DNA from: Achromobacter insuavis
GTDB taxonomy: Bacteria > Pseudomonadota > Gammaproteobacteria > Burkholderiales > Burkholderiaceae_B
NCBI RefSeq assembly: GCF_902859645.1
Contig: NZ_CADIJR010000005.1
Coordinates: 93,442-157,441 of the forward strand
DNA length: 64,000 nucleotides
Direction of reading: 5' to 3'
Positions 47,688 to 64,000 of this stretch are shown here, piece after piece. The position numbers were made by a program, and so were the translations under genes. The stretch's first letter is position 1. Every line of letters starts with the position of its first letter. The notes under the pieces were generated by a model that saw only the letters and a list, made by a program, of their open reading frames with translations, was not told the origin of the DNA and did not search any database.

Positions 47688-49089
47688 GCGATGCTCCTGC
47701 GTGATGCGATTGGCGCGCGGCGGCCGCGGCGCGGGTGCCAGCGATGCGGCCGAAGGCGGTGCCGATGGACATGCCCACCCCCGCCGTGTAGCCCTTGCCC
47801 AGCACGTTGCCTGCCATCATCTCGCCCGCCACGAACAGGTTGTCGCTGGGCACGCCGTTGAAACGGACCGCGGCGGTCTCATCCACCTTCAGGCCCAGAT
47901 AGGTGAACGTGATGCCGGGCCGCAGCGCGTAGCCGTAGAACGGCGCGGTGTCGATGGGCCGGGCCCAGTGCGTCTTGGCGGGCGCCAGGCCCTCGGTGCG
48001 GCAGTCGTCCAGCGTCGTGTGGTCGAAGGTGCCGGTTCTACAGGCCTGGTTGTATTCGCGGAGGGTGCGCGCGAACGCCACGGGGTCCAGCCCCAGCCGC
48101 CGCCCCAGTTCCGGCACGGAATCGGCGGTGACGCCCGGAAACACCGGTGGCATGAAGCGGCCGACGGCCTTGGCGTCGATGATGGAATAGGCGATCTGCC
48201 CCGGCTGCATGGCGGTCAGGCGGCCCCAGATGGCGTAGCGCTTGGGCCAGAAATCCTCGCCCTCGTCGTAGAAGCGTTGCGCGTCGCGGTTGACCACCAC
48301 GCCCAGCGAGACGCAGTCGATGCGGGTGCAGATGCCGCCGTCGTACAGCGGCGCGCGCGCGTCGATCGCCACGCAGTGCGACTGCGACGGATCGCCGATG
48401 CGGTCGGCGCCCGCGTCCAGCATGAACTTGAGCAGCACGCCCTGGTTGTAGCGGGTGCCGCGGATGAGGAAGTTGTCGGCCGGCCATTCGCCGCGCTCGT
48501 TCTGGCCCCACGCCTCACGCAGCCAGTCGCGGTTGGACTCGAAACCGCCGGCCGCCAGCACACAGGCGCGCGCCTCGATGCGCTCGGCGCCGATGCGGGC
48601 GGCCTTGAAGCGGCCGTTCTCCAGTTCCAGCGCGTCCACCGGCGCGCCGTAGCGGATGCGCACGCCCAGGGCCTCGGCGCTGCGGTAATAGGCGTTCACC
48701 AGCGCCTTGCCGCCGCCCATGAAGAAGGCGTTGGTGCGGGCCACGTGCAGCGCGCCCGACAGCGGCGGCTGGAAATGGACGCCGTGGCGCCGCATCCAGT
48801 CGCGACAGGTGGCGGACGCGCGGATCACCAGCCGCGCCAGCTTTTCGTCGGTCTGGCCGCCGGTGACCTTGAGCAGGTCCTGCCAGTATTCCTCTTCCGG
48901 ATAGGCGTCCACCAGCACGTCCTGCGGCGCGTCGTGCATGCAGCGCAGGTTGCGCGTGTGCTGCGAATTGCCGCCGCGCCATTCGCGCGGCGCGGCCTCC
49001 AGCAGCAACACGCTGGCGCCGGCCTCGCGCGCCATCAGGGCCGCGCACAGCGCCGCATTGCCCCCGCCCACCACCAATACATCGACCAT
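47674..49089 (-). CDS. tcuA: FAD-dependent tricarballylate dehydrogenase-like
   Basis: A 471-aa flavoprotein with an N-terminal dinucleotide motif ([20 protein letters not shown]), [33 protein letters not shown] and a C-terminal [19 protein letters not shown]. TcuA oxidises tricarballylate to cis-aconitate in the cytosol, so the product can enter the TCA cycle. The match to the fumarate-reductase/succinate-dehydrogenase flavoprotein fold is clear; the exact substrate rests on the TcuB partner and regulator. It is preceded by a LysR gene 55 bases upstream in the same direction. Confidence 0.88.
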
Positions 49090-49144
49090 GTCTTCGTTCC
49101 CGGATCAAGGAACGGACTGTAGGCCGGCGCCGCGCGCCGCGATA

Positions 49145-50122
49145 TCAGCGCGGCGTCAACGGGTCTTCATGATTCGTGAAGGGTGCGGCCTCCGATCCGG
49201 CCGCGTGCAACGTCGTCACCGCCCACCTGCCGTCGCGCGCCAGGGTGCGCGACACGTCCGCCAGCACCAGGCGCGCGGCCAGCGCGGCGGGCGACAGCTC
49301 GTCATCCGACAGGCTGGCCAGCAGGTTGGGCCGGAACAGGTCGGCGTCGTCGATCCGCGCCATGGCCAGCTGCCCCGGCGCGATGCGCGCGGTGGCCGAA
49401 CTGGGCTGGATGGTGGCGGCATAGCCCAGTTGCACCACGTCCATCAGCAGCGCCAGGCCATCGACCTCGGCCACCACGCGCGGCGTCAGGCCGCGTTGCT
49501 GGAACGCCTGGCTGACCAGGGCGCGCAGCCCGTGGCGGCCGCTGGGCAGCACCAGCGGCAGGCCGGCGATGGCCTCCAGGCGGGTGGTGGGGCCGGCGGG
49601 CAGGCCGGCCATGCCGCGCCCGGCGCACAGGTACAGCGGCTCGTCCAGCAGCGGCATCACGCTCCAGCGGCGCGCCGCCTCGGCGTGGAACACGACGGCC
49701 AGGTCGAGCTGGCGGCCGTTGAGCATGTCGGCCAGGTGGCCCGACAGCGCCTCGACCAGATGCAGGCGGATATCCGGATAGCGCTGGTTCATGGCCTGCA
49801 CGAACGGCGCCCCCAGGATGGACGCGGTGGTAGACGACAGGCCGACGCTGACATGGCCGGCCAGGCGCGCCTGCTGCGCGGCGTGGACGGCGTCGTCGGC
49901 ATGGCGCAGCGCGAGCTGGGCCTGGCGGAAGAACGCCAGCCCCGCGTCGGTCGGCACCACGCCGCTGGCGCTGCGTTGCAGCAGCCGCGTGGCCAGCTCG
50001 CCTTCGAGCCGGCTGATCTGCTGGCTGAGCGCGGAGGTCACCATGCCCAGCGACATCGCCGCGCGGCCGATGCTGCCGGCTTCGACGACGCGGACGAAAT
50101 AACGAAGCTGGCGCAGTTCCAT
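49145..50122 (-). CDS. LysR-family regulator of the tcu-like operon
   Basis: A 325-aa protein with the HTH MELRQLRYFVRVVEAGSIGR, AAMSLGMVTSALSQQISRLE, and an effector domain (HVSVGLSSTTASILGAPFVQ, DLAVVFHAEAARRWSVMPL) of the Nac/Cbl-like subgroup. It sits directly before tcuA on the same strand, as tcuR does in Salmonella, and probably controls tcuAB and the Bug gene. The last ~20 residues are not conserved and follow the last helix. Confidence 0.9.
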   Translation of the reverse strand: MELRQLRYFVRVVEAGSIGRAAMSLGMVTSALSQQISRLEGELATRLLQRSASGVVPTDAGLAFFRQAQLALRHADDAVHAAQQARLAGHVSVGLSSTTASILGAPFVQAMNQRYPDIRLHLVEALSGHLADMLNGRQLDLAVVFHAEAARRWSVMPLLDEPLYLCAGRGMAGLPAGPTTRLEAIAGLPLVLPSGRHGLRALVSQAFQQRGLTPRVVAEVDGLALLMDVVQLGYAATIQPSSATARIAPGQLAMARIDDADLFRPNLLASLSDDELSPAALAARLVLADVSRTLARDGRWAVTTLHAAGSEAAPFTNHEDPLTPR

Positions 50123-50194
50123 GGCGGGCCCGGACTAAGGATGACCCGCCGATTGTAGGACGCGGGGCAAGCCGGCCGCTCGCCCCGCCACGCG

Positions 50195-51094
50195 TCAGTA
50201 GCGCGCGTCCTTCGGCTTCTTGCCGTCCGGCCAGTCCTTCTCCTTGGGCGGGAAGTCCGGCCGCGGCATGTGGGTGAAGTACTCGGCCACGTCGACCGCG
50301 TCCTGGTCGGACAGCACCGCGCCCTCGCCCCAGTTGCCATGGGTGTTGACCCCCATCGGCATGCTGTTGCGGATGAAGGCCGCCGCCTTGTAGGTGCGGG
50401 CCAGCCCGGCGCCGATGTTGAACGATTCGTCGCCCCACAGCGGCGGGAACACGATGTTGCCGGCGCCGTCGCGCTTGCCCTCGCCGTTGGCGCCGTGGCA
50501 GGCCGCGCACTGCGCCGCGTACAGGGTCTTGCCGCGCGCCGAGTCAGGCACCAGCTTGGTGTCGATGGGCCAGGCGTTCTTGATCTGCACCTGGGCGCCA
50601 TGCGGCACATCCTGCGCCAGCCACTTCATGTAGGCCAGCATCGCCGCCATTTCGGGCGAGGCCTTGTCCAGCGGCTTGCCGTTCATCGAGCGTTGGAAAC
50701 AGCCGTTGATGCGATCCGCCAGCGTCACTTCGCGGCCCGCGCGCGGGTTGAACTGCGGGAACGAATTGACCGAATTGATGTACGGCGCGCCCAACGGCTT
50801 CTTGCCCTGCTGCACGTGGCAGCTGCTGCAGTTGAGGCTGGCGCCGGTGTTGTTCGGCAGCAGCCGGCGGGTTTCGTTGAGCAGGCGCTGGCCGTAGCGG
50901 ATCTGCTCGGCGTTGGGCTCCTTGTCGATCAGGGTGTCGGACGGAATGGTGTAGTCGGCCAGCCGCTTGCCGTCCTTGTCGAGCACGGCGAAGGTCTTGG
51001 GCTCGCCCGCCGGCGCGGGCGGAGCCGCCAGCGCGGCCAGGCCGCCGCCCGCCATCAGCGCCACCGCGGCGGCGATCTTGTACAGCTTATTCAT
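50195..51094 (-). CDS. exported diheme cytochrome c (TsdA-like)
   Basis: A 299-aa protein with a signal peptide (to AALA, about residue 23), two heme motifs (CSSCH near residue 90, CAACHG near 194) and DRINGCFQRSMNGKPL (about 125-140), which resembles the thiosulfate dehydrogenase TsdA and its catalytic Cys region. TsdA enzymes form or split tetrathionate in the periplasm. The start is supported by GGGAGG. It overlaps the triheme cytochrome gene by 8 bases, so the two are one operon. Family assignment is good; thiosulfate as substrate is inferred. Confidence 0.82.
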   Translation of the reverse strand: MNKLYKIAAAVALMAGGGLAALAAPPAPAGEPKTFAVLDKDGKRLADYTIPSDTLIDKEPNAEQIRYGQRLLNETRRLLPNNTGASLNCSSCHVQQGKKPLGAPYINSVNSFPQFNPRAGREVTLADRINGCFQRSMNGKPLDKASPEMAAMLAYMKWLAQDVPHGAQVQIKNAWPIDTKLVPDSARGKTLYAAQCAACHGANGEGKRDGAGNIVFPPLWGDESFNIGAGLARTYKAAAFIRNSMPMGVNTHGNWGEGAVLSDQDAVDVAEYFTHMPRPDFPPKEKDWPDGKKPKDARY

Positions 51095-52439
51095 GCTTGC
51101 CTCCCGACACGATGTTCGGCTTCTTGCTGGCCAGGAAGCCGCGGATGTGAGCGACCTCGTCGCTGGCGATCGGCGGCGCCTGGTTGGTCCAGGCCGTGCG
51201 GATGAAGTTGATGACGTCGGTGATGTCCTGGTCGCTCAGGTGGTTGAAGCGCGGCATCGCGAAGGCCATGGCGTCATGGTCGTTGGCGGGCATCTTGCCG
51301 CCTTCCAGGGTGATCTGGATGATCGACTGCGGGTTCTGCGCGAAGATCGCGGAGTTGCCCGCCAGCGCCGGGAAAATGCGCGCCATGCCCTGGCCGTCGG
51401 CCCGGTGGCAGATGACGCAATGCTCCATGTAGATCACCGCGCCGCGCGAGTCGTAGCGGCCGGCCAGCAGCGACGCGGTGGTGTTGTCCGCCTTGGCGGG
51501 GAATACCGGCACCTTGCCCGGCACCGGCGGCAGCTGCTTCAGGTAGGCCGCGATGCTGGCCAGGTCGTCATCGGTGAAATAACGCGTGCTGTGCTCGACC
51601 ACGTCGGCCATGGCGCCGAACACCGCCACCCGGTCGGTACGGCCGGTCTTCAGGAACAGCGCGATATCGGCCGCGCTCCAGGAGGCCAGGCCGCGGGCCT
51701 CGCCACGCAGGCTCTTGGCGCGCCAGCCGTCGATCACGGCGCCCGACAGGAAGGCGTCGCCGTCGGCCATCGACAGCGCCTTTTCCTGGTAGGCCAGGCC
51801 GCGCGGCGTGTGGCAGGCGCCGCAGTGGCCCGGGCCTTCCACCAGGTAGGCGCCGCGCTTGACCTGCTCGTCGGCGCCCGCCGGCGCGGCGAAGTCGCGC
51901 TTGCCGGCGAACAGCAGCTGCCACCAGGCCATGGGCCAGCGCATGTTCAGGGGCCACGGGATAGTCGAATCGGCGCTGGGCTTGGCGACCGGCGCGACGT
52001 CGGCCATGAAGTAGGCGTAGAGCGCCTGGATGTCGCGGTCGGGCATGATGGCGTACGACGGATACGGCATGGCCGGATAGAGCGCCGCGCCGTCCTTGCG
52101 GATGCCGTACTGCACCGCGTTCTTGAAATCGGCGTAGCTGTAGGCGCCGATGCCGCTGGCCTTGTCGGGCGTGATATTGGACGAATAGATGGTGCCGACC
52201 GGCGTCTGCATCGCCAGGCCGCCCGCGAAGGGCTTGTCGCCCGGCACGCTATGACAGGCGACACAGTCGGCGGTGCGCGCGATATAGGCGCCGGCTTCGG
52301 CCAGCCGGCGGTCCTGCGGATCGACGCTGGCCGTGGTGTCCGTCTTGCGGCTGGCGGTCAGCAGATGGGCGCCGCCGATGCCGCCGCCTATCCCCAGCAG
52401 CGCCACCAGCGCCACCGCCTTGATCCCGAAATGCTTCAT
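51087..52439 (-). CDS. exported triheme cytochrome c (dehydrogenase subunit II type)
   Basis: A 450-aa protein from the ATG at 52439 (GGAGGG upstream). One membrane-type leader comes first (IKAVALVALLGIGGGIGGAH), then heme motifs CVACH (about 59), CGACH (about 204) and CVICH (about 340). Triheme proteins of this shape usually carry electrons from a membrane dehydrogenase (alcohol, gluconate or aldehyde) to the oxidase. Here it is paired with a TsdA-like protein and no dehydrogenase, so it may accept electrons from that protein. It could also be an orphan subunit. Confidence 0.88.
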   Translation of the reverse strand: MKHFGIKAVALVALLGIGGGIGGAHLLTASRKTDTTASVDPQDRRLAEAGAYIARTADCVACHSVPGDKPFAGGLAMQTPVGTIYSSNITPDKASGIGAYSYADFKNAVQYGIRKDGAALYPAMPYPSYAIMPDRDIQALYAYFMADVAPVAKPSADSTIPWPLNMRWPMAWWQLLFAGKRDFAAPAGADEQVKRGAYLVEGPGHCGACHTPRGLAYQEKALSMADGDAFLSGAVIDGWRAKSLRGEARGLASWSAADIALFLKTGRTDRVAVFGAMADVVEHSTRYFTDDDLASIAAYLKQLPPVPGKVPVFPAKADNTTASLLAGRYDSRGAVIYMEHCVICHRADGQGMARIFPALAGNSAIFAQNPQSIIQITLEGGKMPANDHDAMAFAMPRFNHLSDQDITDVINFIRTAWTNQAPPIASDEVAHIRGFLASKKPNIVSGGKHE

Positions 52440-52692
52440 TTGACCCTCCGTTGCGTGCCGGGCAGCGCGCACGTCGGGTGTTCGTACTGCGTCGTCCAGC
52501 TTATGGAGGCAGCTTACGCTTTTAAGTAATAAACATATTACCGAAAAGCATGAAAGTATCGGGGTTGTTTGACCCGGCGCAAACAGGCCGAATCTTGGAG
52601 ACTCGTTAACACGAGAATAGTCCGGTGTTGGGCCAATTTTGCCGGGACCGGCGGGGCGTCAGGCCCCGGCCGTCCCCGGCGCACACCGCCCG

Positions 52693-53391
52693 TCAGGCCG
52701 GAATCGTCAGACCCTTGGCCACCGCCGGACGCGCCACGAAGGCCTCCAGCACGCGCGCGACGTTCTTGAATTGCGAGAACTCGACCAGCTCGCCGGCGCC
52801 GTAGAAACCGACCAGATTGCGCACCCACGGCAGGATGGCGATGTCGGCGATGGTGTACTGGTCGCCCATGACCCAGTCGCGGCCTTCCAGGCGCTTGTCC
52901 AGCACGCCCAGCAGGCGCTTGGATTCGGCCACGTAGCGGTCGCGCGGACGCTTGTCCTCGTAGTCCTTGCCGGCGAACTTATGGAAAAAGCCCAACTGGC
53001 CGAACATCGGGCCGATGCCGCCCATCTGGAACATCACCCATTGCAGGGTCTCGTAGCGCCCGGCGGTGTCGGCGGGGATGAACTGGCCGGTCTTGCTGGC
53101 CAGGTAGATCAGGATGGCGCCGGACTCGAACAGCGCCAGCGGCTTGCCGTCCGGCCCATTGGGATCGAGGATGGCGGGGATCTTGTTGTTCGGGCTGAGC
53201 GACAGGAATTCCGGCGAGAACTGGTCCTGCGTATCGAAACTGACCCGGTGCGGCTCATACGGCAGGCCCAGCTCTTCCAGCAGGATCGACACCTTGACGC
53301 CATTGGGCGTGGGCAGCGAATACAGCTGGATGCGGTCGGGATGCTGGGCGGGCCATTTCCGGGTGATGGCGAACGAGTCGAGGGAAGACAT
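52693..53391 (-). CDS. glutathione S-transferase (nu-class, YghU/YfcG-like)
   Basis: A 232-aa protein from the ATG at 53391. The thioredoxin-fold half (IQLYSLPTPNGVKVSILLEE, NNKIPAILDPNGPDGKPLAL, FESGAILIYLASK) is followed by the helical half (GRDWVMGDQYTIADIAILPW). 'YSLPTPNGVKV' and 'FESGAILIYLA' are typical of nu-class GSTs such as YghU and YfcG, which bind glutathione or GSSG and reduce disulfides or peroxides. The gene stands alone. An AGGAG with about 10-base spacing fixes the start. Confidence 0.93.
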   Translation of the reverse strand: MSSLDSFAITRKWPAQHPDRIQLYSLPTPNGVKVSILLEELGLPYEPHRVSFDTQDQFSPEFLSLSPNNKIPAILDPNGPDGKPLALFESGAILIYLASKTGQFIPADTAGRYETLQWVMFQMGGIGPMFGQLGFFHKFAGKDYEDKRPRDRYVAESKRLLGVLDKRLEGRDWVMGDQYTIADIAILPWVRNLVGFYGAGELVEFSQFKNVARVLEAFVARPAVAKGLTIPA

Positions 53392-53610
53392 GCGGGGGAG
53401 CTCCTGGAGATCCGGTGGCGATGAGGGGTGGCGATCGTGGCGGGTGCGGCCTCTGGCCGGCGCCCCGCGGCGCGTCGGGCAAATGTAGCGCAAATCACCC
53501 ACCGGCAAGCGCCTTGTGGCCGCGCCGCGGGCACTCGCGCTGCAACGGTCTGTTCCAGGGAAAACCGCGCCGTCGGCAGGGGATTCCGGCCGGCGGCGGC
53601 GGCCCGCCGC

Positions 53611-55338
53611 TCAGCGCGCCGCGTCGGCCCGGGCCCAGGCCGGCAGGTCCGCCCGCGCCTGCCGCAGGAAGGCGGTGGCGGTGATGACGTCGGCGTCGTT
53701 GCGGCGGTCCTCGGTCATGGCCGGCACCTGCTGGCGGAAATCCCGCCACAGGCTGGCGGTGCCCTGCCCCAGCGCCGCCGCCGGGCCTTGCGGATAGCGC
53801 AGGTCGACCGCCTGGGCGCCGTGCATCAGTTCCACCGCCAGCAGCCGGGTCAGGGCCGCGATCTGGCCGGTCACGCGCAACCCGGTCAGCGGCGCATTGG
53901 TGCCGACGTCCTCGATATTGCCGGCCTGCGGCTGCACGTCGGTCACGACCGGCCCGGCCAGGGCGCGCACGTCCGCCGCCAGCGACGACACCGTCTTCTG
54001 GATCGGGCCGTAGCCGATGGCGCCATTGCCCGGACTGAGAAAGCGCGGCAACCGCGTGAAGGCCGGGTCCGTCAGACGCAAGGTGCGTTGCGCCGACAGT
54101 TGCGCCACCTGCGACAGCGCCACGCCGGCGCCTTGCAGCGGCAGCACCCAGGCGCTGGGATCGAACCCGGCGCTGGGCATGACGGCGCCACGCACCGGAC
54201 CCTCGGTCACGTAGTACTGGATTTCATAGTCGGGCGCGCCGGCCGCCGGCGCGGCGTCCAGCACCACCGTCGGGTTGTCGTCGGAACTGTTGATCTGCAC
54301 CTGCAGCTGCCGGTCCAGCAGCGCCAGCAGGTCGCGCGCCGCGCCGTGCACCTGGCTCACCGTGCGAAAACTCAGCGGGTCCTGCAAGGGCCGCTGCGGA
54401 TCGCGCTTCCACAACGCGCTGCCGCGCAGCAGGCCCAGCATGCGCTCGGCGGTCTGGCGCTGGCCGGCGTAAGGCCGTTGCGATTGCGCGGGCGCCAGCA
54501 AGGGCGCCAGGTTGCCGTCCAGGCCTTCGAGCGACAGCGCCGCCACCGCGTCGGCCTGTGCCAGCAGCGCGCGCGCATCGTGCGCGGCCAGCACCGCCAG
54601 CGCGGCGCCATAGGCGTTCGAGCTGACCATCGACAGCGCGTCCTTGCCGAACGGACGCACCGCCACCAGGCCGGCCTCGCGCAGGGCCTGCCCGGCGCTC
54701 ATGCGATGGCCGCCGTGCCAGGCCTCGCCCTCGCCCATCATCACCAGGCCGATCTGCGGCAGGATGGTGATGTCGGCCTGGCCGACCGAGCCTTCGCCCA
54801 GCATCACCGGCGTCACGTCGCGGTTGAGAAACGCGGCGTACTGCTCCAGCACCGCCGGCTGCATGCCGGCGCCGCCAAACAGCGCCGTGTTCAGGCGGAT
54901 CAGCATGGCGGCGCGGGTCACGTCGCGCGGCGCCTCGGCGCCGTAGGCCGCGCTGTGCGAATGCAGCAGGTTGCGGTTGAACTGTTCGGACAGGCGCCGC
55001 ACCTCGGGCGAGATCTCGCCGCCCTGAAAGATGGTCTGGTCCTTGTTCAGGCCCACGCCACGGTTCAGGCCGTACACCGGCTTGTCCAGGCGCGCATAGG
55101 CCAGCAGCAAGTCGTAGGCGCGCGCCGCCCGCCGCGCCGCGGCCGGCGCGATGGCGACGGCGCAATCCTGCCGCGCCACCGCCAGCACCTGCGCCGCCGT
55201 CAGCGATTTGCCGTCCAGCGTGACGCTGCAATCGCCGGCCGCCTGCGCGGCCGCGCCCAGCAACAGTGTCGCCAGCAGCGCCATCCGGCCGCACGCGCGC
55301 GCCGCGCGTCGGTGGGTATCAACACGCAAAGACTTCAT
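53611..55338 (-). CDS. exported histidine-ammonia-lyase-like protein lacking the MIO motif
   Basis: A 575-aa protein of the HAL/PAL/TAL fold. The N-terminus is a signal peptide (MKSLRVDTHRRAARACGRMA, hydrophobic stretch, cleavage near AQA-AGD), unusual for this family. It has the substrate-loop Tyr (VYGLNRGVGLNKD, about 89), NRNLLHSHSAAYG and SSDDNPTVV. Where canonical enzymes read GSVGASGDL, this one reads GSVGQADI (about 180-187): one residue is missing and Ala-Ser-Gly, which cyclises into the MIO cofactor, is absent. MIO-dependent deamination is therefore unlikely. A good GGAGG fixes the start. It is last in the DUF917-urocanase-MFS-MBL run. Confidence 0.85.
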   Translation of the reverse strand: MKSLRVDTHRRAARACGRMALLATLLLGAAAQAAGDCSVTLDGKSLTAAQVLAVARQDCAVAIAPAAARRAARAYDLLLAYARLDKPVYGLNRGVGLNKDQTIFQGGEISPEVRRLSEQFNRNLLHSHSAAYGAEAPRDVTRAAMLIRLNTALFGGAGMQPAVLEQYAAFLNRDVTPVMLGEGSVGQADITILPQIGLVMMGEGEAWHGGHRMSAGQALREAGLVAVRPFGKDALSMVSSNAYGAALAVLAAHDARALLAQADAVAALSLEGLDGNLAPLLAPAQSQRPYAGQRQTAERMLGLLRGSALWKRDPQRPLQDPLSFRTVSQVHGAARDLLALLDRQLQVQINSSDDNPTVVLDAAPAAGAPDYEIQYYVTEGPVRGAVMPSAGFDPSAWVLPLQGAGVALSQVAQLSAQRTLRLTDPAFTRLPRFLSPGNGAIGYGPIQKTVSSLAADVRALAGPVVTDVQPQAGNIEDVGTNAPLTGLRVTGQIAALTRLLAVELMHGAQAVDLRYPQGPAAALGQGTASLWRDFRQQVPAMTEDRRNDADVITATAFLRQARADLPAWARADAAR

Positions 55339-55355
55339 CTTGCCTCCGGCGGTGC

Positions 55356-56504
55356 TTATGGTTGCTTCAAGGGAATACGCATCAAATCCTGGCCCAGCAC
55401 CACCGGACCCTTGAAGGTCTCGCGGGCATGCAGCCAATGGTCGGCCGGCGCATCGCCCGGCACCAGGTGCGACAGCACCAGCTTGCGGACGCCTGCCTGC
55501 GTCGCCGCCTCGCCGGCCTGCTGCGGCGTGGTGTGCGCCTCCAGCAGTTGCCGCGCCAGCGCCTGCTGGCGCGCGTCCCAGGGCTTGGGGCCGACGATGT
55601 GGTCGACCCAGGCGGGATCGATGGCCTCGTGCACCAGGATGTCGGCGCCGCGCGCCAGCTTGACCAGGTTGGGGCTGAGCGCGGTGTCGCCCGAGAACAC
55701 CACCGAGCCCGACGCGGTGTCGAAGCGGTAGGCGAAGTTGGGGTACACCAGCCCGTGCGGCACCAGGATCGCGCTGACCGTCACGCGCTCGTCGCGCCAG
55801 ACCTCGAAGGGTTCCATCGGCGGCGCCGGGTTGGCGTTCGGGTCTTTCACCACACCGGCCGGCACGGCGATGTCATGCGCCTGGAAAAAGCCGCGCACGT
55901 CCGGCACGCCCTCGCTGCGCACGCGGATGTTGAGGTCGGCGGCCATGCCGGCGACCACCGAGTCCACCAGGTCCACGGTGCCCGCGCCCGGGTTCTCGGC
56001 ATGGATAACCGGATCGCCCGCCAGGCCAGGCGCCAGCGGCGGCAGCGCGCCGCGGCGTCCCGGCCCGTAGATCTGCAACGACGCCTTGGCGCGGCGGCGC
56101 GCGCTGGGGTCGTACATCAGCAGGCTGGCCAGGTCGATGATGTGGTCGGTGTGCAGGTGCGTCAGGAACACGGCCTGCTCGGCGCCGGGCTTGATGCCGG
56201 CGCGGCGCAGTTGCCGGTAGGCGCCCGAGCCCAGGTCGACGAGGTAGGCCTTGCCGTCCACCACCAGCGCCGACGAGATGCCGTGGGGCGCGTCGTTGCC
56301 GTACCAGGTCGGCCCGCCGGCCACGCCCAGCAGCACCAGTTCGGCGCCCTGCCCCGCTTGCGCGGCTGGCGCGGCCAGCATCGCCGCCACGCCCAGCGCC
56401 GCGGCGGCGCGACCCAGCCAGCGGCGCAGGCCGCCGACGGCCGAACGGCGCGCCGGCAAGCCTGCATGCGCCACGTTCACGAACCGCTTGCCGGCCTCAG
56501 ACAT
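55356..56504 (-). CDS. exported MBL-fold metallo-hydrolase
   Basis: A 382-aa protein with a twin-Arg-containing leader (RRWLGRAAAALGVAAMLAAP, cleavage near AQA-GQG), so it is exported, perhaps by Tat. The metallo-beta-lactamase metal motif is THLHTDHIIDLASL (about 112-125), with FSGDTALSPNLVKLA and VLSHLVPGD further on. It belongs to the RNase Z/arylsulfatase-like MBL group; the substrate is unknown. It starts 8 bases inside the MFS gene and ends 18 bases before the lyase-like gene, so it is co-transcribed with them. It may hydrolyse a ring or ester of the substrate of that pathway. Confidence 0.85.
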   Translation of the reverse strand: MSEAGKRFVNVAHAGLPARRSAVGGLRRWLGRAAAALGVAAMLAAPAAQAGQGAELVLLGVAGGPTWYGNDAPHGISSALVVDGKAYLVDLGSGAYRQLRRAGIKPGAEQAVFLTHLHTDHIIDLASLLMYDPSARRRAKASLQIYGPGRRGALPPLAPGLAGDPVIHAENPGAGTVDLVDSVVAGMAADLNIRVRSEGVPDVRGFFQAHDIAVPAGVVKDPNANPAPPMEPFEVWRDERVTVSAILVPHGLVYPNFAYRFDTASGSVVFSGDTALSPNLVKLARGADILVHEAIDPAWVDHIVGPKPWDARQQALARQLLEAHTTPQQAGEAATQAGVRKLVLSHLVPGDAPADHWLHARETFKGPVVLGQDLMRIPLKQP

Positions 56505-57837
56505 GGTTCTTCTGCGGCAGCACGGTCAAGGCCACCAGGGCCACCACGCAGGCGCCCATCACATACAGCGCCGGCGCGAAGGCCACGCCGGTGGTGTAGG
56601 TGATCCAGGTCAGGATGGCCGGCGCGAAGCCGCCCAGCACCGTCACCGCGGTGTTGTAGGCCAGGGACATGCCGGACGAGCGCACCGCCGTCGGGAACAC
56701 TTCCGACAGCGCCGACGGCGCGGTGCCGACGTACAGCGCCACCAGCAGGCAGAACGACGACTGCACCACGATCAGCGCGAACTGCGTGTGGTTGGCCTGC
56801 AGCCACATCATCAGCGGATACACCGCGATCAGCAGCAGCAGCGCCGACGCGCGCAGCACGGTGCGGCGGCCGTAGCGGTCGGACAGCGTGCCCGAGAAGA
56901 AGCAGCCGCCGATCAGGAACAGGTTGCCCACCAAGGCGCCCAGGAAGGCCTGCGAGCTGGTGAAGCCCATGCTCTTCTGCACATAGATCGGCATGAAGAT
57001 GATCAGCGCGTACGGCCCGATGGCCCACAGCACCGACATGCACAGACCGGTGAACAGCTCGCGCGGATAGTCGCGCAGCACGCTCAAGAGCGGCGCCTTG
57101 GCGGGCTTGCCGCTGGCGGCCTGGCGCTGCTGTTCCTCGCGGAAATGCGGCGTCTCGTCGAGCGCGCGGCGCATCCACAGCCCCACCGGCGCGATCGACA
57201 GGCCGACGATGAACGGAATGCGCCAGCCCCATTCGCCCACCTGGTCTTCGGTCAGCAGCGTGGTCACCAGCGTGGCGACCAGCGCGCCCAGCAGGTTGGA
57301 GATGCCCATGCTGGCCTGCAGCCACGAGGCGTACTGGCCGCGCTTGCCGGCCGGCGCGTGCTCGACCAGGAAGGCGGTGGCGCCGCCCACTTCGCCGCCG
57401 GCCGAGAAGCCCTGCAGCATGCGGCCGCACACGATCAGCAGCGGCGCGCCCACGCCGATGGCGGCGTACGGCGGCGCGATGGCGATGAGCAGCGTGCCCA
57501 GCGCCATCAGCATGATGGTCAGCGTCAGCGCCGCCTTGCGGCCGGCGCGGTCGCCATACGCGCCCAGCATCAGCGCGCCCAGCGGCCGCACCACGAAGCC
57601 CAGCCCGAAGGCCAGGAACGAGGCCATCAGCTGCACCGTCGGATCTTCGTTGTGGAAGAAGTTCTGCCCGATATACACCGCGAACAGCGCGTAGACCGAA
57701 AAGTCGTACCACTCCAGGGCGTTGCCGATCGAAGCGGCGATGACCGCCTTCTTGGCGCCCTTGTGCTCATCGGCGCCTGCGTGGGCGGCATTGCCCCCCA
57801 CCATCCCCGCGCCCGGGTTGATTGCGATGTTTTTCAT
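56497..57837 (-). CDS. MHS-family MFS transporter
   Basis: A 446-aa protein with twelve helices and metabolite:H+ symporter motifs: IGNALEWYDFSVYALFAVYI, FGLGFVVRPLGALMLGAYGD, RAGRKAALTLTIMLM and GRMLQGFSAGGEVGG. This group carries organic acids, betaines and similar small ions (ProP, ShiA, CitA). In this cluster it would import the pathway's substrate or the product of the periplasmic lyase. It overlaps the MBL gene by 8 bases and follows the urocanase-like gene by 50 bases. Confidence 0.93.
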   Translation of the reverse strand: MKNIAINPGAGMVGGNAAHAGADEHKGAKKAVIAASIGNALEWYDFSVYALFAVYIGQNFFHNEDPTVQLMASFLAFGLGFVVRPLGALMLGAYGDRAGRKAALTLTIMLMALGTLLIAIAPPYAAIGVGAPLLIVCGRMLQGFSAGGEVGGATAFLVEHAPAGKRGQYASWLQASMGISNLLGALVATLVTTLLTEDQVGEWGWRIPFIVGLSIAPVGLWMRRALDETPHFREEQQRQAASGKPAKAPLLSVLRDYPRELFTGLCMSVLWAIGPYALIIFMPIYVQKSMGFTSSQAFLGALVGNLFLIGGCFFSGTLSDRYGRRTVLRASALLLLIAVYPLMMWLQANHTQFALIVVQSSFCLLVALYVGTAPSALSEVFPTAVRSSGMSLAYNTAVTVLGGFAPAILTWITYTTGVAFAPALYVMGACVVALVALTVLPQKNHV

Positions 57838-57887
57838 TGACGTTCCCGTTGATTCGCCCCGTGTCCGGGGCTGTTATGTCCTGCCGT

Positions 57888-59543
57888 TCAAACCCGCGCC
57901 GCCATCGTGTCGATGCGGTCGATACCCTTCTTTCCGACTTCGTCCAGCGCTTCTTCGTAGCCGGCGTCGGCATAGCGCAGTACGCCGCTGGCGGTGTCGT
58001 TGGTCAGCGACAGCGACAGGCGCTGCGCCGCCGCGTCGGTGCCGTCCGCCACCACCGTCACGCCGGCGCTGGTCATGTAGCCGCTGTAGCCGCCGCCGCC
58101 CGAATGGATCGCCACCAGGTCGGCGCTGGACGAACAGTTGATCATCGCGTTCAGCAGCGGCCAGTCGGCGATGGCGTCGGAGCCGTCGCGCATGTTCTCG
58201 GTCATGATGTTCGGATGCGCCATGGCGCCGGCGTCCAGGTGGTCGCGGGTGAACGCCACCGGCGCGGCCAGAATGCCCTCGCGCACCATGCGGTTCACTT
58301 CCAGCGCCAGTTCCGTGCGCTCGCCGTGGCCGAGCCAGGCGATGCGCGCGGGCAGGCCCTCGAACGGCACCGACTCGCGCGCCAGCCGGATCCAGTTGGA
58401 CACGATCAGGTTGTCGGGGAAGCGCCGCAGCAGGAAGTCGTCGATCTTGCGGATGTCCTCGGGATCGTTGGACAGCGCGATCCAGCGGAACGGGCCGATG
58501 GCGCGCGCGAACAACGGGCGCAGGAAGGCCTCGGTGAAGACGGGGATCTCGAAGGCGCGCTCGACGCCGCCTTGCTTCGCATGGGTGCGGATCAGGTTGC
58601 CGTTGTCGAACACCACCGCGCCGCGGTCCTTAAAACCCAGCATCGCGGTGACGTGGCGCACGATCGAGCGGCGGCTGGCGTCCATCAGGCCTGCCATGTC
58701 CTCGCGGCGCATGCGCGCGACCTGCTCCAGCGTGTGGCCGGCGGGCACGTAGCCGTAGACCAGGTCATGCGCCGAGGTCTGGTCGGTGACGATGTCGGGC
58801 ACGATGCCGCGCGCCAGGATCTCGGGATACACGTCGGCGGCGTTGCCGAGCAGGCCCACCGACAGCGGGCGGCGCGCCGCCTGCGCGTCGCGGATCAGCG
58901 CCAGCGCCTCGTCCAGCGTGTCGGCGCGGCATTCCAGGAAGCCGGCCTTGATGCGTTTCTCGATGCGTTCCGAATCGATCTCGACCGTCAGGATGGCGGC
59001 GTTGGCCATGCGGCCCGCCAGCGGCTGGGCGCCGCCCATGCCGCCCATGCCCGCGGTCAGGATGAAGCGGCCGCGCAGGTCGTTGTCGAAATGGCGCTCG
59101 GCGATGCGCGAGAAGATCTCGTAAGTGCCCTGGATCACGCCCTGCGAGCCGATGTACTGCCAGTCGCCGGCGGTCAGGCCGCCCCAGCAGATCAGGTTGT
59201 CGTCCTGCATGCGGTAGAAATTCTCGGCATGCGCCCACTGCCCCACCATGTTGCAGTTGGCCATGATCACGATCGGCGCCTGCGGATGGGTGCGCAGCAC
59301 GCCGATGGGCTTGCCGGACTGCACGATCAGGGTCTGGTCCTCTTCCAGCGTCATCAGCGCGCGCACGATGGCGTCGTGCGACGGCCAGTCGCGCGCGGCG
59401 CGGCCCAGCGCCGCGTAGACCACCAGGTTGGCGGGGTCCTCGCCCACCGCCAGCACGTTCTCCAGGAGGCGCAGCAGCGCTTCCTGGCGCCAGCCCTTGC
59501 AACGCAGCGTGGTGCCGCCCGGCACCTTGAATTCACGTTTCAT
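57888..59543 (-). CDS. urocanase-family protein lacking the signature Cys
   Basis: A 551-aa protein clearly of the HutU fold (MKREFKVPGGTTLRCKGWRQ, CWGGLTAGDWQYIGSQGVIQ, AGMGGMGGAQPLAG, RDHLDAGAMAHPNIMTENM, LLNAMINCSSSADLVAIH). The urocanase signature normally reads F-Q-G-L-P-x-R-I-C-W; here it is FEGLPARIAWLG (about 395-406), so the Cys is Ala and Gln is Glu. The HHGGGVGMG stretch is replaced by HSGGGGYSG (about 483). It is NAD-dependent by family, but its substrate is probably an altered urocanate such as thiourocanate. It lies 10 bases downstream of DUF917. Confidence 0.85.
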   Translation of the reverse strand: MKREFKVPGGTTLRCKGWRQEALLRLLENVLAVGEDPANLVVYAALGRAARDWPSHDAIVRALMTLEEDQTLIVQSGKPIGVLRTHPQAPIVIMANCNMVGQWAHAENFYRMQDDNLICWGGLTAGDWQYIGSQGVIQGTYEIFSRIAERHFDNDLRGRFILTAGMGGMGGAQPLAGRMANAAILTVEIDSERIEKRIKAGFLECRADTLDEALALIRDAQAARRPLSVGLLGNAADVYPEILARGIVPDIVTDQTSAHDLVYGYVPAGHTLEQVARMRREDMAGLMDASRRSIVRHVTAMLGFKDRGAVVFDNGNLIRTHAKQGGVERAFEIPVFTEAFLRPLFARAIGPFRWIALSNDPEDIRKIDDFLLRRFPDNLIVSNWIRLARESVPFEGLPARIAWLGHGERTELALEVNRMVREGILAAPVAFTRDHLDAGAMAHPNIMTENMRDGSDAIADWPLLNAMINCSSSADLVAIHSGGGGYSGYMTSAGVTVVADGTDAAAQRLSLSLTNDTASGVLRYADAGYEEALDEVGKKGIDRIDTMAARV

Positions 59544-59553
59544 CAGCGCCCCC

Positions 59554-60645
59554 TCAGCGACCCAGCGCGTAGCCGGTGAAGTCCATGCCCAGCGCCTTCT
59601 CGACGATCGGATAGACCGAGGCGTCGGTGACGCTGGAGGACAGCGGGATGTGCTGCTTGGACACGTGCAGGATGGACACCTGCAGGCCCTCGCGCAACTT
59701 GCCGGCGCTGACCGGATTGCCGTCGGCGTCCAGCGTGGTGATGACGTCCGGATAGCAGGCGATGCGCTCGCCCTGCGCGTCGGTCACGGCCATGTGCTCG
59801 TTCATGACGTGGATGACGCGCTTGCCCGCGCCCTCGCCGATCTCGACCGTGCCGATGTCGAAGGCTTCCTCGGTGTACTTGAGCGTGTTGCGCACCACTT
59901 TGCCGGAACCGATGATCTCGCCCTGCGTGGCCTTGCAGATGGCGTCGATCACGGCGCTGCCGCCCTTGGGCTGCGCCGCCAGGATGGCTTCGCCCAGCGC
60001 CAGCGCGCGGCTGATGCCGCCCAGCGCGGCGTGGCGCCGCACGTACGAGGCGCGGATCGGATTGCGGCAGCTGGCGATGAAGCCGCCGGCCATGTCGGCG
60101 GCCTTGCGCAGCACCGGCGATACCTTGCCGGTGGCGCCGTGCACGGTCAGTTCCATATAGGCGTTGTTGGCGCGGTTGCCGCCCACGGCGCACTGGATCA
60201 TCGGCTCGGGGCTGCCGGCCAGGCCCAGCGAGCCCATGTCGCCGGTGGGATGGGCGCGGATGTCGCCCACCGCGTCCACCACCTTGGTGCCCAGCACCGC
60301 CGACGGCAGCCAGCCGTTGAGCGTGCTGGACATGCCGTTCTGGCCGATGATGAGGCCATACAGGCGCTCGCCCAGCGCATCCTGCAGGCGCTCGGCCGCC
60401 TTGACGTAGTCGATGCCCAGCATCTGCCAGTCGGTCAGGCCGCCGGGCGCGCCGATGGCGGCGGCGGTGGCGATCCAGGCGTCATCGGGCACTTCGTCCA
60501 TCGACACCAGTTCGGGCCGGCCGATGGTCACGGCCAGCGATCCCAGTTCGCGGCCATGCTCGGCCCAGCCGCCCCCGCCACAGGCAAACACCGAACCGCC
60601 CCTGACCGCGGCCTCGACATCCTGCATCGTCAAGATTCTTCCCAT
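59554..60645 (-). CDS. DUF917 domain protein
   Basis: A 363-aa cytosolic protein starting MGRILTMQDVEAAVRGGSVF, with the Gly-rich CGGGG (residues 22-26), LDADGNPVSAGKLREG and a C-terminal LGMDFTGYALGR. DUF917 proteins are metal-type hydrolase-like proteins often encoded beside hydantoinases. In ergothioneine breakdown a desulfhydrase acts between the hydratase and the hydantoinase; this gene is the best candidate for that ring-processing step. It is first of the minus-strand operon and starts near an operator dyad at 60764. GGAAGGG supports its start. Confidence 0.85.
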   Translation of the reverse strand: MGRILTMQDVEAAVRGGSVFACGGGGWAEHGRELGSLAVTIGRPELVSMDEVPDDAWIATAAAIGAPGGLTDWQMLGIDYVKAAERLQDALGERLYGLIIGQNGMSSTLNGWLPSAVLGTKVVDAVGDIRAHPTGDMGSLGLAGSPEPMIQCAVGGNRANNAYMELTVHGATGKVSPVLRKAADMAGGFIASCRNPIRASYVRRHAALGGISRALALGEAILAAQPKGGSAVIDAICKATQGEIIGSGKVVRNTLKYTEEAFDIGTVEIGEGAGKRVIHVMNEHMAVTDAQGERIACYPDVITTLDADGNPVSAGKLREGLQVSILHVSKQHIPLSSSVTDASVYPIVEKALGMDFTGYALGR

Positions 60646-60763
60646 TGCTGCGCCCTTCCTTTCCCGATTGCGTTTAGCGGCTCCAACGGCATGCGCGCTG
60701 GATAGACGAGGGCATCATAGGAACCAATCCCGTTAATGTCGTATTACCTTTTATGCCTTGTTC

Positions 60764-60778
60764 ATAACATTGGGTTAA
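60764..60778. promoter_or_regulatory. TTAAC-N5-GTTAA-like dyad upstream of the DUF917 operon
   Basis: ATAACATTGGGTTAA: half-sites (T/A)TAAC and GTTAA with a 5-base spacer. It matches the dyad at 61763-61777 in the promoter of the LysR and hydantoinase genes. It lies about 120 bases upstream of the DUF917 start and 84 bases past the LysR stop. Confidence 0.6.
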
Positions 60779-60861
60779 TAGCGGGGTGCGCCCCGAGAGA
60801 GGGGCAATCCGGGGGCAGAACGGACCTAGGGATATCCCCAGGCGCCGGCGGGGGGAAAAGA

Positions 60862-61758
60862 TCAGGCGCCGGCGGGCTGGTCCAGCGTCACCAGCACGTC
60901 GATGAAGGCCTGCGCCAGGCGCGACAGCGGCTGCAATTGCAGGTGGAACACATTGACCGGCGCGTTGACCGTATCGGCGATCGGCACCGTCACCACGTCC
61001 GACCAGATCGGGCCGGCCACGGTGATCTCGTCCACCAGCGCCACGCCGGCGCCGGCCTGCACCAGGGCGCAGGCCACGTGCGCCTGCTGCACCTCGATGC
61101 GCGGCTCGGGCTGCGCGTCCTCGGCGCCGAACAGCTTGTGCACCAGCATGCCGAAGGGAATGTCGGCGCTGTAGCCGATCAGCGGCTCGCGCGCCAGCTC
61201 GGCGGCGGTGACCTGGCGGCGTCCGGCCAGCGGATGGCCGGCGGGCAGCACCGCCACGATGCGGTTCTCGTACAGCGGCCGGGTCGCCAGGCTGGGATGG
61301 TTCACCGGCATGTAGGCCACGCCCAGTTCGACCTGCTGGGTCAGCAGCGACTGCTCCATCACCGCCGGGATCAGCGTCTGCAGCACGATGCGGATTTCCG
61401 GGTGTAGTTGACGAAAGCGGGCGATGGCGCGCGGCAGCAGCGACTGGCCCAGGCTCGGGCTACAGGACAGGCGCAACTGGCCCTCGCGGTTCTCCGCCAG
61501 GTTGTCGGCCACCTCGTTGACGCGCTGCACGTTCTGGTAGAGCGCGGTCACTTCGACGAACAGCCGCCGCGCTTCCGGCGTGGGGTAGAGCCGCCCCTTG
61601 ATGCGCTCGAACAGCATCAGGCCCAGGCGCTGCTCGGTGTAGGCGATCAGCCGGCTGACGGCGGGTTGCGACACGAACAGCAGCTTGGAGGCGCCGCTGA
61701 TCGAGCCGCTCAACATGATGGCGCGGAAGACCTCGATCTGGCGCAGATTCAATTTCAT
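60862..61758 (-). CDS. LysR-family regulator between the two arms of the cluster
   Basis: A 298-aa protein with the HTH MKLNLRQIEVFRAIMLSGSI, SGASKLLFVSQPAVSRLIAY and an effector domain (GQLRLSCSPSLGQSLLPRAI, ELGVAYMPVNHPSLATRPL). The ATG is at the edge of an operator region. It is divergent from the hydantoinase gene and lies 216 bases beyond the DUF917 start, so it can control both arms. The two similar dyads support that. The effector is probably a pathway substrate or intermediate. Confidence 0.92.
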   Translation of the reverse strand: MKLNLRQIEVFRAIMLSGSISGASKLLFVSQPAVSRLIAYTEQRLGLMLFERIKGRLYPTPEARRLFVEVTALYQNVQRVNEVADNLAENREGQLRLSCSPSLGQSLLPRAIARFRQLHPEIRIVLQTLIPAVMEQSLLTQQVELGVAYMPVNHPSLATRPLYENRIVAVLPAGHPLAGRRQVTAAELAREPLIGYSADIPFGMLVHKLFGAEDAQPEPRIEVQQAHVACALVQAGAGVALVDEITVAGPIWSDVVTVPIADTVNAPVNVFHLQLQPLSRLAQAFIDVLVTLDQPAGA

Positions 61759-61799
61759 ATGCTTAACCTGATGTTAATTCCCATGCACATATAAGCATA
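61758..61799. promoter_or_regulatory. LysR operator region: two nested inverted repeats
   Basis: TTAACCTGATGTTAA (61763-61777) is a T-N11-A dyad of the LysR type. A second pair, TATGCTTA (61758-61765) and TAAGCATA (61792-61799), surrounds it. Both lie between the LysR ATG and the hydantoinase start. Confidence 0.65.
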
Positions 61800-61859
61800 A
61801 GACGTTTTGAATCGTGCTTACTACACTGCCCTTCAGTTCTTCATTGGATGGAAGTGGTC

Positions 61860-63215
61860 ATGAGCGATTTCGATTGGGTGGTGCGCGGCAATATCGTCGA
61901 TCCGCACGGCATCGTGGAAAACGGCTGGCTGGCCGTGCAGGGCGGCAAGATCGCCGCGCGCGGCACCGGCGCGGCCCCCGCGGCGCGTGACAGCGTCGAC
62001 GCCAGCGGGCAGTGGATCATCCCCGGCGTGGTCGACGGCCAGGTGCACTCCGGCAGCCAGGCCAACCAGGAAGGCCTGGGCTGGGCCTCGCGCGCCGCCG
62101 CCGCCGGCGGCGTCACGGTCATGGTCGACATGCCCTACGACGATCCCGAGCCGGTCGCCTCGCGCCCGCACCTGGACGCCAAGATCGCCGAGGTCGAGCG
62201 CGACTGCCACGTCGACGTGGGGCTGTTCGGCACCCTGAACAAGGAACACGGCCTGGCCGCCGCCGCCGGCCTGATCGAGGGCGGCGTCTGTGCCTTCAAG
62301 TTCTCCACCTTCGAAGCCACGCCCGGCCGCTTCCCGCGCATCGAGGAAGACGACCTGTACGAGGCCTTCCGCCTGATCGCGCCGTCCGGCCTGGTGTGCG
62401 GCGTGCACAACCAGATGCAGGAGATGACGCGCAAGAACATCGCGCGCCTGATCGAGGCCGACGACACCGGCTGGGACGCCTTCATGCGCGCCCACACGCC
62501 GCTGATCGAGAACCTGGCCACCGCGCTGATCTACGAGATCGGCGCCGAGACCGGCGCCCGCGCCCACGCGGTGCACGTATCGACCTCGCGCGGCTTCGAG
62601 ATCTGCAACATGTTCCGCCGCAACGGCCACCGCGCCAGCATCGAGACCTGCGTGCAATACCTGATGCTGAACCACGAGGAACACACCCGCCGCTTCGGCG
62701 CCAAGACCAAGCACTATCCGCCGATCCGCCCCAAGGCCGAGGTCGAGCTGCTGTGGACCCACATCGCCAACGACGAATGCACCTTCGTGTCGTCGGATCA
62801 CGTCAGCTGGGGCCTGGAGCGCAAGCAAAACCCCAACGTCTTCAAGAACTCGTCCGGCGGCCCGGGCCTGGAAACGCTGCTGCCGGCCTTCTGGACCGGT
62901 TGCGAGGAACACGGCATCTCGCCGTCGATGGTGGTGCGCCAGCTGTGCGACAACCCCGCGCGCCACTTCCTGCTGGACGACCGCAAGGGCACGCTGGAAG
63001 TCGGCAAGGATGCCGACATCGTCATCCTGACGCCGGAGCGCTACGCCTACGACCCGTCCACCAGCCTGTCGGCGGTGCAATGGAGTTCGTTCGAGGGCCG
63101 CGAGTTCACGGTGCGCGTGGCCGGCACCTGGTGCCGCGGCCAGCAGGTCTATGATGGCCGCCGCATCGTCAACAACAAGGGCGACGGCCGCTTCCTGCGT
63201 CCGCGCAAGGCATGA
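61860..63215 (+). CDS. hydantoinase/dihydropyrimidinase-like amidohydrolase
   Basis: A 451-aa TIM-barrel amidohydrolase. Metal-site elements: DGQVHSGSQ (about 58), Lys in VCAFKFSTFE (about 147, the expected carboxylated Lys), GVHNQ (about 181), VHVSTSRG (about 238) and SSDHVSWG (about 313). The first His of the usual H-x-H pair is Gln (DGQVH), so one metal site may be altered. It should open a hydantoin or dihydropyrimidine ring. The ATG at 61860 has GGAAG six bases upstream; an ATG at 61848 is possible. The stop overlaps the next gene as ATGA. Confidence 0.88.
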   Translation: MSDFDWVVRGNIVDPHGIVENGWLAVQGGKIAARGTGAAPAARDSVDASGQWIIPGVVDGQVHSGSQANQEGLGWASRAAAAGGVTVMVDMPYDDPEPVASRPHLDAKIAEVERDCHVDVGLFGTLNKEHGLAAAAGLIEGGVCAFKFSTFEATPGRFPRIEEDDLYEAFRLIAPSGLVCGVHNQMQEMTRKNIARLIEADDTGWDAFMRAHTPLIENLATALIYEIGAETGARAHAVHVSTSRGFEICNMFRRNGHRASIETCVQYLMLNHEEHTRRFGAKTKHYPPIRPKAEVELLWTHIANDECTFVSSDHVSWGLERKQNPNVFKNSSGGPGLETLLPAFWTGCEEHGISPSMVVRQLCDNPARHFLLDDRKGTLEVGKDADIVILTPERYAYDPSTSLSAVQWSSFEGREFTVRVAGTWCRGQQVYDGRRIVNNKGDGRFLRPRKA

Positions 63216-64000
63216 ACGGCATGGCCATGTCCTTTCCTCCGTTGAACGCCGAACGCCTGTGGTCGCGCGTCGAGACCCTGTCGCGCTACACCCTGCCCGA
63301 CCAGCCCTGGACCCGCCGCGCCTTTTCGCCGCTGTTCCTCGAAGCGCGCGACTGGCTGCGCGGTGAATTCGAGGCCGCGGGCCTGGCCACGCGCCTGGAC
63401 GCCGGCGGCAACCTGATCGGCACCCGCGCCGGCCGCAACGCGCAGCTCAAGCCCATCGCCACCGGCTCGCACTGCGACACCGTCATGAGCGGCGGCCGCT
63501 TCGACGGCATCATCGGCGTGCTGGCCGGCATCGAGGTCGCCCACACGATGCGGGAACATGGCATCGAATTGGAGCATCCCTTCGAGGTCATCGACTTCCT
63601 GTCCGAAGAACCCAGCGACTACGGCATCTCCTGCGTCGGCAGCCGCGCTTTGAGCGGCCAGCTCAGCGCCGACATGCTGGCCGCCCGCAACGCCGACGGC
63701 GAGACGCTGGCGCAGGGCATCGCCCGCATCGGCGGCGATCCGGTCGCGCTGGCCCGGCCCTTGCGTGGCCCCGACGGCACCGCCGCCTTCGTCGAGCTGC
63801 ACATCGAGCAAGGCCCGGTGCTGGAAAGCCGCCAGCTGCCCATCGGCGTGGTCACCAACATCGTCGGCATCCGCCGCGTGCTGATCACGGTCGAAGGCCA
63901 GCCCGACCACGCCGGCACCACGCCCATGGACATCCGCCGCGACGCCCTGGTGGGCGCGGCCCGCATCATCGACGCCGCCAGCCGCCAGGCCAGCGCCGCC
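63212..64000 (+). CDS. M20-family N-carbamoyl-amino-acid hydrolase, 3' end cut by window
   Basis: At least 263 residues are visible. M20 metal ligands are intact: GSHCDTV (about 84), the Asp in GGRFDGIIG, SEEPSDYG (about 131) and VELHIEQGP (about 194). PDHAGTTPMDIRRDAL (about 231) is typical of N-carbamoyl-L-amino acid hydrolases and allantoate amidohydrolases. It would release CO2 and NH3 from the product of the hydantoinase, giving an amino acid such as glutamate. The start is fixed by the ATGA overlap (63212-63215). Confidence 0.9.
   Translation, partial: MNGMAMSFPPLNAERLWSRVETLSRYTLPDQPWTRRAFSPLFLEARDWLRGEFEAAGLATRLDAGGNLIGTRAGRNAQLKPIATGSHCDTVMSGGRFDGIIGVLAGIEVAHTMREHGIELEHPFEVIDFLSEEPSDYGISCVGSRALSGQLSADMLAARNADGETLAQGIARIGGDPVALARPLRGPDGTAAFVELHIEQGPVLESRQLPIGVVTNIVGIRRVLITVEGQPDHAGTTPMDIRRDALVGAARIIDAASRQASAA

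Follow-up and report, generated by a model that had tools for sequence, protein, structure and literature searches.

Which compound does the gene cluster at the end of an Achromobacter insuavis contig break down, and where in the cell does that breakdown begin? The window, meaning the whole stretch of DNA analysed here, spans 64,000 nucleotides of assembly GCF_902859645.1 (contig NZ_CADIJR010000005.1, positions 93,442 to 157,441; contig C5 of source genome G000, G and L numbers being the genome and locus labels of this analysis). Its last part carries genes for an aromatic lyase, an MBL-fold protein, an MHS-type carrier, the enzymes ErtB to ErtE and a LysR protein. These most likely form a complete five-step cluster for the use of ergothioneine, with its first step relocated to the periplasm. 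Ergothioneine, an antioxidant that comes from the diet, gives off trimethylamine when bacteria break it down.

In the scheme we propose, ergothioneine would enter the periplasm, where an exported ergothionase free of the methylidene-imidazolone (MIO) cofactor would eliminate trimethylamine and leave thiourocanate, an anion. The MHS carrier would bring thiourocanate into the cytoplasm, where ErtB would hydrate it and ErtC would then remove the sulfur; ErtD would open the hydantoin and ErtE would take off the carbamoyl group to yield glutamate. The LysR protein is the presumed regulator of the cluster.

Enzymes of the pathway

The lyase is closest, in sequence and in predicted fold, to the Treponema denticola ergothionase (PDB 6s7j) rather than to histidine ammonia-lyase (HAL). 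The ASG triad that forms MIO is missing (GSVGQAD, vs GSVGASGD in the HutH of the source genome), in line with the original prediction that each enzyme, this HAL-like one included, departs from the canonical histidine-pathway motif; a passage of PMC13405746 describes ergothionase as lacking MIO. The HutH equivalog is not reached (279 bits, cut-off 539). The lysine of an NKD motif, absent from S-methyl-type lyases and from locus L041, is kept. Such an enzyme would convert ergothioneine to thiourocanate and trimethylamine.

The later enzymes were scored with curated NCBIfam equivalogs. ErtB reaches 1041 bits with the thiourocanate hydratase model (NF058530, cut-off 930), ErtC 594.5 bits with the thiohydantoin desulfurase model (NF058529, cut-off 440) and ErtD 702 bits with NF058538 (cut-off 600). 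The window copy of ErtE, cut by the contig end, scores 436 bits over 256 of the 418 positions of NF058540 (cut-off 520), which the full-length orthologue of A. ruhlandii (L054) passes with 672.7 bits. The models for S-methyl-ergothioneine are not reached in the window (hydratase 753 vs a cut-off of 880, desulfurase 274 vs 450), and a search of PDB with ErtC gave a single distant match that was not informative. At the level of sequence these results place the cluster in the known five-step bacterial pathway of ergothioneine degradation.

A candidate for every step of that pathway had been predicted, and each is now backed by a curated family model or by the closest solved structure; set against characterised enzymes, the lyase lies nearer the T. 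denticola ergothionase than HutH, and ErtB scores higher on the thiourocanate model than on hutU. The substrates that the prediction had kept as alternatives, hercynine and methylhistidine, have become unlikely because ErtB and ErtC fit the thiourocanate and thiohydantoin equivalogs and the lyase retains its lysine. Ordinary histidine is disfavoured by the same scores and lysine test.

Site of the first step

Signal rule. Signal peptides were scored with a home-made rule that asks for a charged n-region, a hydrophobic run without polar residues and a small-residue cleavage site, from any upstream start (threshold 5.4), with lyases and controls treated alike. The N-terminus of the window lyase, MKSLRVDTHRRAARACGRMALLATLLLGAAAQA, is signal-peptide-like. 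Of 120 lyase places, those of HutH-type rows among them, the rule flagged 86; it flagged the MBL protein at all 27 of its places (repeated genomes included). Among controls it flagged one of 235 places from seven families of cytoplasmic proteins, and 32/34 TctC receptors, 37/37 reductases, 32/32 cytochromes, 2/2 TRAP receptors and 7/7 betaine receptors. Among the distinct lyases that have the NKD motif (93 in all), 71 of the 76 from outside Bacillota were flagged vs none of the 17 from Bacillota. This count takes distinct sequences only and leaves out twelve motif-less lyases (L041, L042, the signal-less L046, L200-L202 and L204, three of HutH type, and two flagged rows of S-methyl type). Of the five misses among the 76, L069 is cut by a contig end, and L035, L052, L058 and L184 have hydrophobic N-termini that fall outside the rule.

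Cysteine content. The lyase core holds a median of 0 cysteines (range 0-2) in the same 76 lyases vs 7 (1-11) in the 17 of Bacillota. Per 1000 residues at Gram-negative loci, medians are 9-18 for ErtB to ErtE, 6.0 for the ornithine cyclodeaminase-like protein (OCD), 6.8 for LysR, and 0 for the MBL protein and TctC receptors. The core of the window lyase has two cysteines, one near the mature start and the other 22 residues later; all 27 rows with an identity of at least 66% (repeated genomes included) have the pair, vs 0 of 11 rows at 60-63%, and a disulfide is possible.

The lyase and the MBL protein both carry export-type N-termini, and the lyase would act in the periplasm. Signal scoring, cysteine depletion and gene context uphold the original prediction of export signals on both; its suggestion that the first step precedes import by the MHS carrier is likewise favoured by the lyase signal and by the carrier retention described below. 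In open-access literature we found no paper that had ergothionase and signal peptide together, and none with any of the phrases sought that would call an ergothionase or ammonia-lyase secreted or periplasmic, though papers outside the search, those on the pathway included, may mention export; in PMC4621440 the words 'ergothionase' and 'periplasm' both occur, in passages that are unrelated.

Carriers near lyases. Within 8 kb of each lyase we counted betaine importers (OpuAC/ProW-type ABC or BCCT) and acid-type carriers or receptors (MHS, TRAP, TctC). Betaine importers lie near 12 of the 22 unflagged lyases vs one of the 71 flagged ones, and that one, in Agrobacterium, is a 33% match that lies nearer a HutH-type lyase. 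Beside the 71 flagged lyases there is an acid-type carrier or receptor in 28 cases, a reductase (at least 28% identity) in 36, and none of these in six; the unflagged lyases have an acid-type carrier in five cases (L127 and four of the rule misses) and nothing of these kinds in six. Achromobacter, Comamonas, Burkholderia arboris and Paracoccus denitrificans all have an MHS gene next to ErtB plus a flagged lyase, and in Paracoccus aminophilus and Thalassospira ErtBCDE occur with TRAP genes, no lyase being found in the stretch. The window MHS carrier stays below all NCBIfam cut-offs (TIGR00883, 386 bits vs 443; TcuC, 351 vs 445; the betaine-importer equivalog ProP, 288 vs 544), and its single distant PDB match was not informative.

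Natural deletions. Among the 17 desulfurase-positive genomes of the genus, 14 have the lyase, MBL and ErtB, and three (L196, L197, L199) lack all three genes. These three retain MHS, ErtC, LysR, ErtD and the GST gene that follows the lyase; ErtC and MHS have intact open frames in all three and LysR in L197, while ErtE is complete in L196, cut in L197 and off the contig in L199. Of ErtB a 3' remnant is left, with edges that differ between L197 and L196/L199. Elsewhere in these three genomes no further thiourocanate hydratase turned up (top match 50%, the level also seen for HutU), nor any other ergothionase (28-29% at best over the length, with one partial match at 37%). A four-gene tree requires two losses, a single clade being rejected (approximately unbiased test, p-AU 5.2e-21), and ratios of nonsynonymous to synonymous substitution for the pair L196 and L199 are low (ErtC 0.037, MHS 0.030, ErtD 0.041, LysR 0.065). 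Two Achromobacter lineages have lost the lyase, MBL and hydratase independently, with the carrier and desulfurase under purifying selection. Because the carrier was retained without the lyase and ErtB, its cargo would be an acid such as thiohydantoin or thiourocanate; it probably imports an anionic intermediate. The reduced strains may use some other thiohydantoin.

The same pathway could run wholly in the cytoplasm, with the MHS carrier importing ergothioneine itself and hydrophobic N-termini that do not lead to export. ProP, a relative of the carrier (288 bits), imports betaines, and the Bacillota ergothionases of the clade are signal-less, with betaine-import genes near 12 of 17. We consider this unlikely in view of the cleavable-type signals in 71 of 76 relatives from outside Bacillota and their near absence of cysteine, the carrier kept where lyase and ErtB were lost, and the pairing of Shewanella relatives with a signal-bearing reductase.

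Several points weigh against a periplasmic ergothionase as the first enzyme. The signal peptides are called by our own rule and not by SignalP. Export is not universal in Gram-negatives, since L046 (Shinella), L200-L202 and L204 have signal-less lyases, which look cytoplasmic, in complete Ert clusters. The cysteine split parallels the export split and may share that history, and the signal-bearing reductase, with a median of 10.5 per 1000 residues, breaks the pattern. Because export state switched only rarely along the tree, export and carrier counts are not independent, and a phylogenetic test had 4 pairs and no power; these genomes commonly have TctC receptors, which makes that part of the carrier count weak. 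MHS carriers include the betaine importer ProP, the window carrier lies under every cut-off, and in Sporolactobacillus L127 an unflagged lyase has betaine ABC genes as well as an MHS carrier for neighbours. For the lyase itself, 14 of 46 diagnostic columns mismatch. Finally, Bordetella trematum (L036/L065) has MBL and lyase with neither ErtB nor ErtC nearby.

A different reading keeps the export and changes the substrate: the main substrate of the lyase, and the compound that the cluster serves, would be an oxidised ergothioneine (the sulfinate or sulfonate) or some other betaine of histidine. The T. denticola ergothionase also accepts ergothioneine sulfonate. Sister lyases (L037, L038, L050, L053) stand beside urocanase-type hydratase, TctC, OCD or YeiH-type genes and not ErtC, the L037 hydratase scoring over the hutU cut-off and under the thiourocanate one. 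In the window, however, the next enzymes are thiourocanate hydratase and thiohydantoin desulfurase equivalogs, and such enzymes require the thione sulfur, so we judge this quite improbable. That the genes simply make up an ordinary histidine (Hut) cluster, or one for hydantoins in general, whose enzymes have diverged is hardly credible, for although ErtB passes the hutU model (705 bits, cut-off 375) and the hutH model matches, under its cut-off, ErtB scores 1041 on the stricter thiourocanate model, the lyase lacks the MIO triad, and a separate HutU/HutH-like pair, its lyase with ASG, lies on contig C19 of the source genome.

MBL protein. Orthologues at 82% identity or more were found in 15 of 268 genomes of the family (next match 39%), namely the 14 intact Achromobacter genomes and the B. 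trematum genome G113 (L065), and the gene adjoins the lyase; two Comamonas records also have it, at about 80%. It was not found in the cluster stretches of B. arboris and P. denitrificans, and we therefore take it for an accessory. Partial PDB matches are to 8gyg, named arylsulfatase (1.6e-24), and to RNase Z and PNGM-1 (1.7e-13 and weaker); a single-sequence fold prediction was uninformative (mean confidence score, pLDDT, 35.6). Three of the plasmid relatives (42-47%) lie among organic-acid catabolism genes, one adjoining an MFS carrier, and indicate no reaction. The protein appears to be an exported accessory of this lyase subgroup and a putative hydrolase.

Layout of the cluster

Every named gene corresponds to an open frame at the position given in Table 1. 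The five minus-strand genes from ErtC to the lyase are tightly spaced (10 bp separate ErtC from ErtB and 50 bp ErtB from MHS, while MBL and MHS overlap by 8 bp), and the most likely lyase start lies 17 bp past the MBL stop with GGAGG upstream. LysR shares their strand and is divergent from the ErtD/ErtE pair, so the minus-strand order is LysR, ErtC, ErtB, MHS, MBL, lyase, GST. Coordinates and close spacing agree with the single run of genes, and the LysR gene between it and a hydantoinase/carbamoylase pair, that had been predicted. The window ends where contig C5 does (157441 bases), which leaves the M20 gene incomplete.

Table 1. Features of the ergothioneine cluster in the window
Feature	Position	Strand	Basis and remarks
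GST-family gene following the lyase, perhaps part of the operon	52693..53424	-	Pfam; start uncertain, open frame reaches 53508
Aromatic lyase, ergothionase-like, 575 aa, exported-type	53611..55338	-	Pfam; ATG at 55338; putative signal peptide ~residues 1-33
MBL-fold putative hydrolase, exported-type	55356..56504	-	Pfam; zinc-site-like motifs HLHTDH, SGDT, SHL
MFS/MHS-type carrier	56497..57837	-	Pfam; would import thiourocanate or an acid further down the pathway
ErtB, thiourocanate hydratase (urocanase)	57888..59543	-	Pfam; NCBIfam NF058530
ErtC, thiohydantoin desulfurase (S-Me-THD/DUF917)	59554..60645	-	Pfam; NCBIfam NF058529
LysR, likely cluster regulator	60862..61758	-	Pfam
ErtD, hydantoin-5-propionate amidohydrolase	61848..63215	+	Pfam amidohydrolase; NCBIfam NF058538
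ErtE, N-carbamyl-L-glutamate amidohydrolase (M20), cut by contig end	63212..64000	+	Pfam; NCBIfam NF058540

Of 43 Achromobacter genomes searched, 17 passed the desulfurase cut-off, as did one of 369 genomes from the class (the source genome itself) and 6 of 398 from the phylum (source genome included). Gene content and order are repeated in 14 of those 17 Achromobacter genomes, so the arrangement is not chance. The closest named record is A. ruhlandii LMG 1866 (lyase identity 97%). The position of LysR is conserved in Achromobacter, Comamonas and B. arboris clusters; the GST gene is present in L054, L055, L192, L193 and L195-L199, among window-like and reduced clusters, and was not found beside the remaining Achromobacter clusters of window type. 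A scan for promoters and terminators gave nothing above chance (1 and 6 sites vs 0.9 and 4.8 in shuffles). Beyond GST, on the same strand (47674-52472), lie genes for a TcuA-like FAD protein, a LysR and two c-type cytochromes, one of them with a SoxA/TsdA domain.

Related clusters and known systems

Lyase paralogues, mostly signal-bearing, occur at L035 (source genome, C4:80339-81952), L037, L038, L050 and L066-L072, adjoining TctC receptor, ornithine-cyclodeaminase-like and PhnD-like genes and in some cases urocanase-like ones; a YeiH-type putative sulfate exporter is also found at Polaromonas L050 and Paracoccus L053. Their substrate may be oxidised ergothioneine. Achromobacter L205 and L206 have a second kind of cluster, of S-methyl-ergothioneine type (L205, the one scored, passes the S-methyl cut-offs with ErtB and ErtC), whose signal-bearing lyase has A-R in place of N62-K63. 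At L041 (G024) a lyase without signal or lysine, beside betaine ABC and urocanase-like genes, is a candidate hercynine trimethylamine-lyase. Legionella maceachernii L073 has a signal-bearing lyase of the window-lyase clade (core identity 48%), with no Ert neighbours found in the stretch. The Enterococcus lyases L083, L090 and L114 are signal-less, and L083 and L114, the two in the tree, nest within the exported clade, a placement that makes it likely that the gene passed into Gram-positives and lost its signal.

The lyases of Shewanella/Ferrimonas and Sutterellaceae belong to the same exported clade as the window lyase, but have as their neighbour a reductase of flavocytochrome c type, in most cases together with a cytochrome c3-like gene, and neither ErtB nor ErtC was found near them. 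Signal-bearing lyase, flavoprotein and cytochrome c3-like gene occur together in Shewanella, Ferrimonas and Paraferrimonas (L075-L077, L079-L082, L084-L089, L091-L094, L097, L098, L101, L102, L104, L106-L109, L112, L118, L119, L130). The L130 reductase, the only one tested, has urocanate reductase 6t85 as its nearest match, and thiourocanate is possibly respired in the periplasm at such loci. In Sutterellaceae (Parasutterella, Turicimonas, Sutterella, Duodenibacillus, Mesosutterella; L100, L120-L123, L131) the nearby reductase-like genes are 29-58% identical to the Shewanella one, and L100 and L121 have the cytochrome c3-like gene.

A broader picture can be offered tentatively, at rather less than even confidence: ergothionase would be periplasmic in many Gram-negatives, its product, an acid open to exchange, being taken up through acid carriers, respired by a urocanate-reductase-like enzyme of the periplasm (Shewanella, Sutterellaceae) or released, and some Achromobacter, in which front end and hydratase were dropped twice, would cross-feed on the thiohydantoin of others. 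If so, trimethylamine and thiourocanate would arise outside the cytoplasm and be shareable, and the study of ergothioneine uptake, cross-feeding and trimethylamine production would have to change.

Compared with the T. denticola ergothionase, the window lyase has the fold, lysines 63 and 383 (6s7j chain numbering) and the missing ASG triad in common at 34-36% identity, but the chain in the structure lacks an N-terminal extension and counts 8 cysteines over the compared stretch, whereas the window lyase has an apparent export signal and two core cysteines. The operons of Paenibacillus and Cohnella (L110, L117, L128, L129; L133) keep lyase, ErtB and ErtC together as in the window, with ErtB and ErtC of L110 passing the NCBIfam cut-offs; unlike the window, they have a signal-less lyase and OpuAC/ProW-type betaine ABC genes. 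Five-step bacterial ergothioneine catabolism was reportedly described by Beliaeva, Leisinger and Seebeck in 2021. The pathway is thus already published, and it is modelled in NCBIfam; what looks new is confined to the carrier and to where step one takes place. All five enzyme families are shared with the published route, from which the window operon differs in its MHS carrier and exported-type MBL protein and may differ in the putative signal peptide on the lyase.

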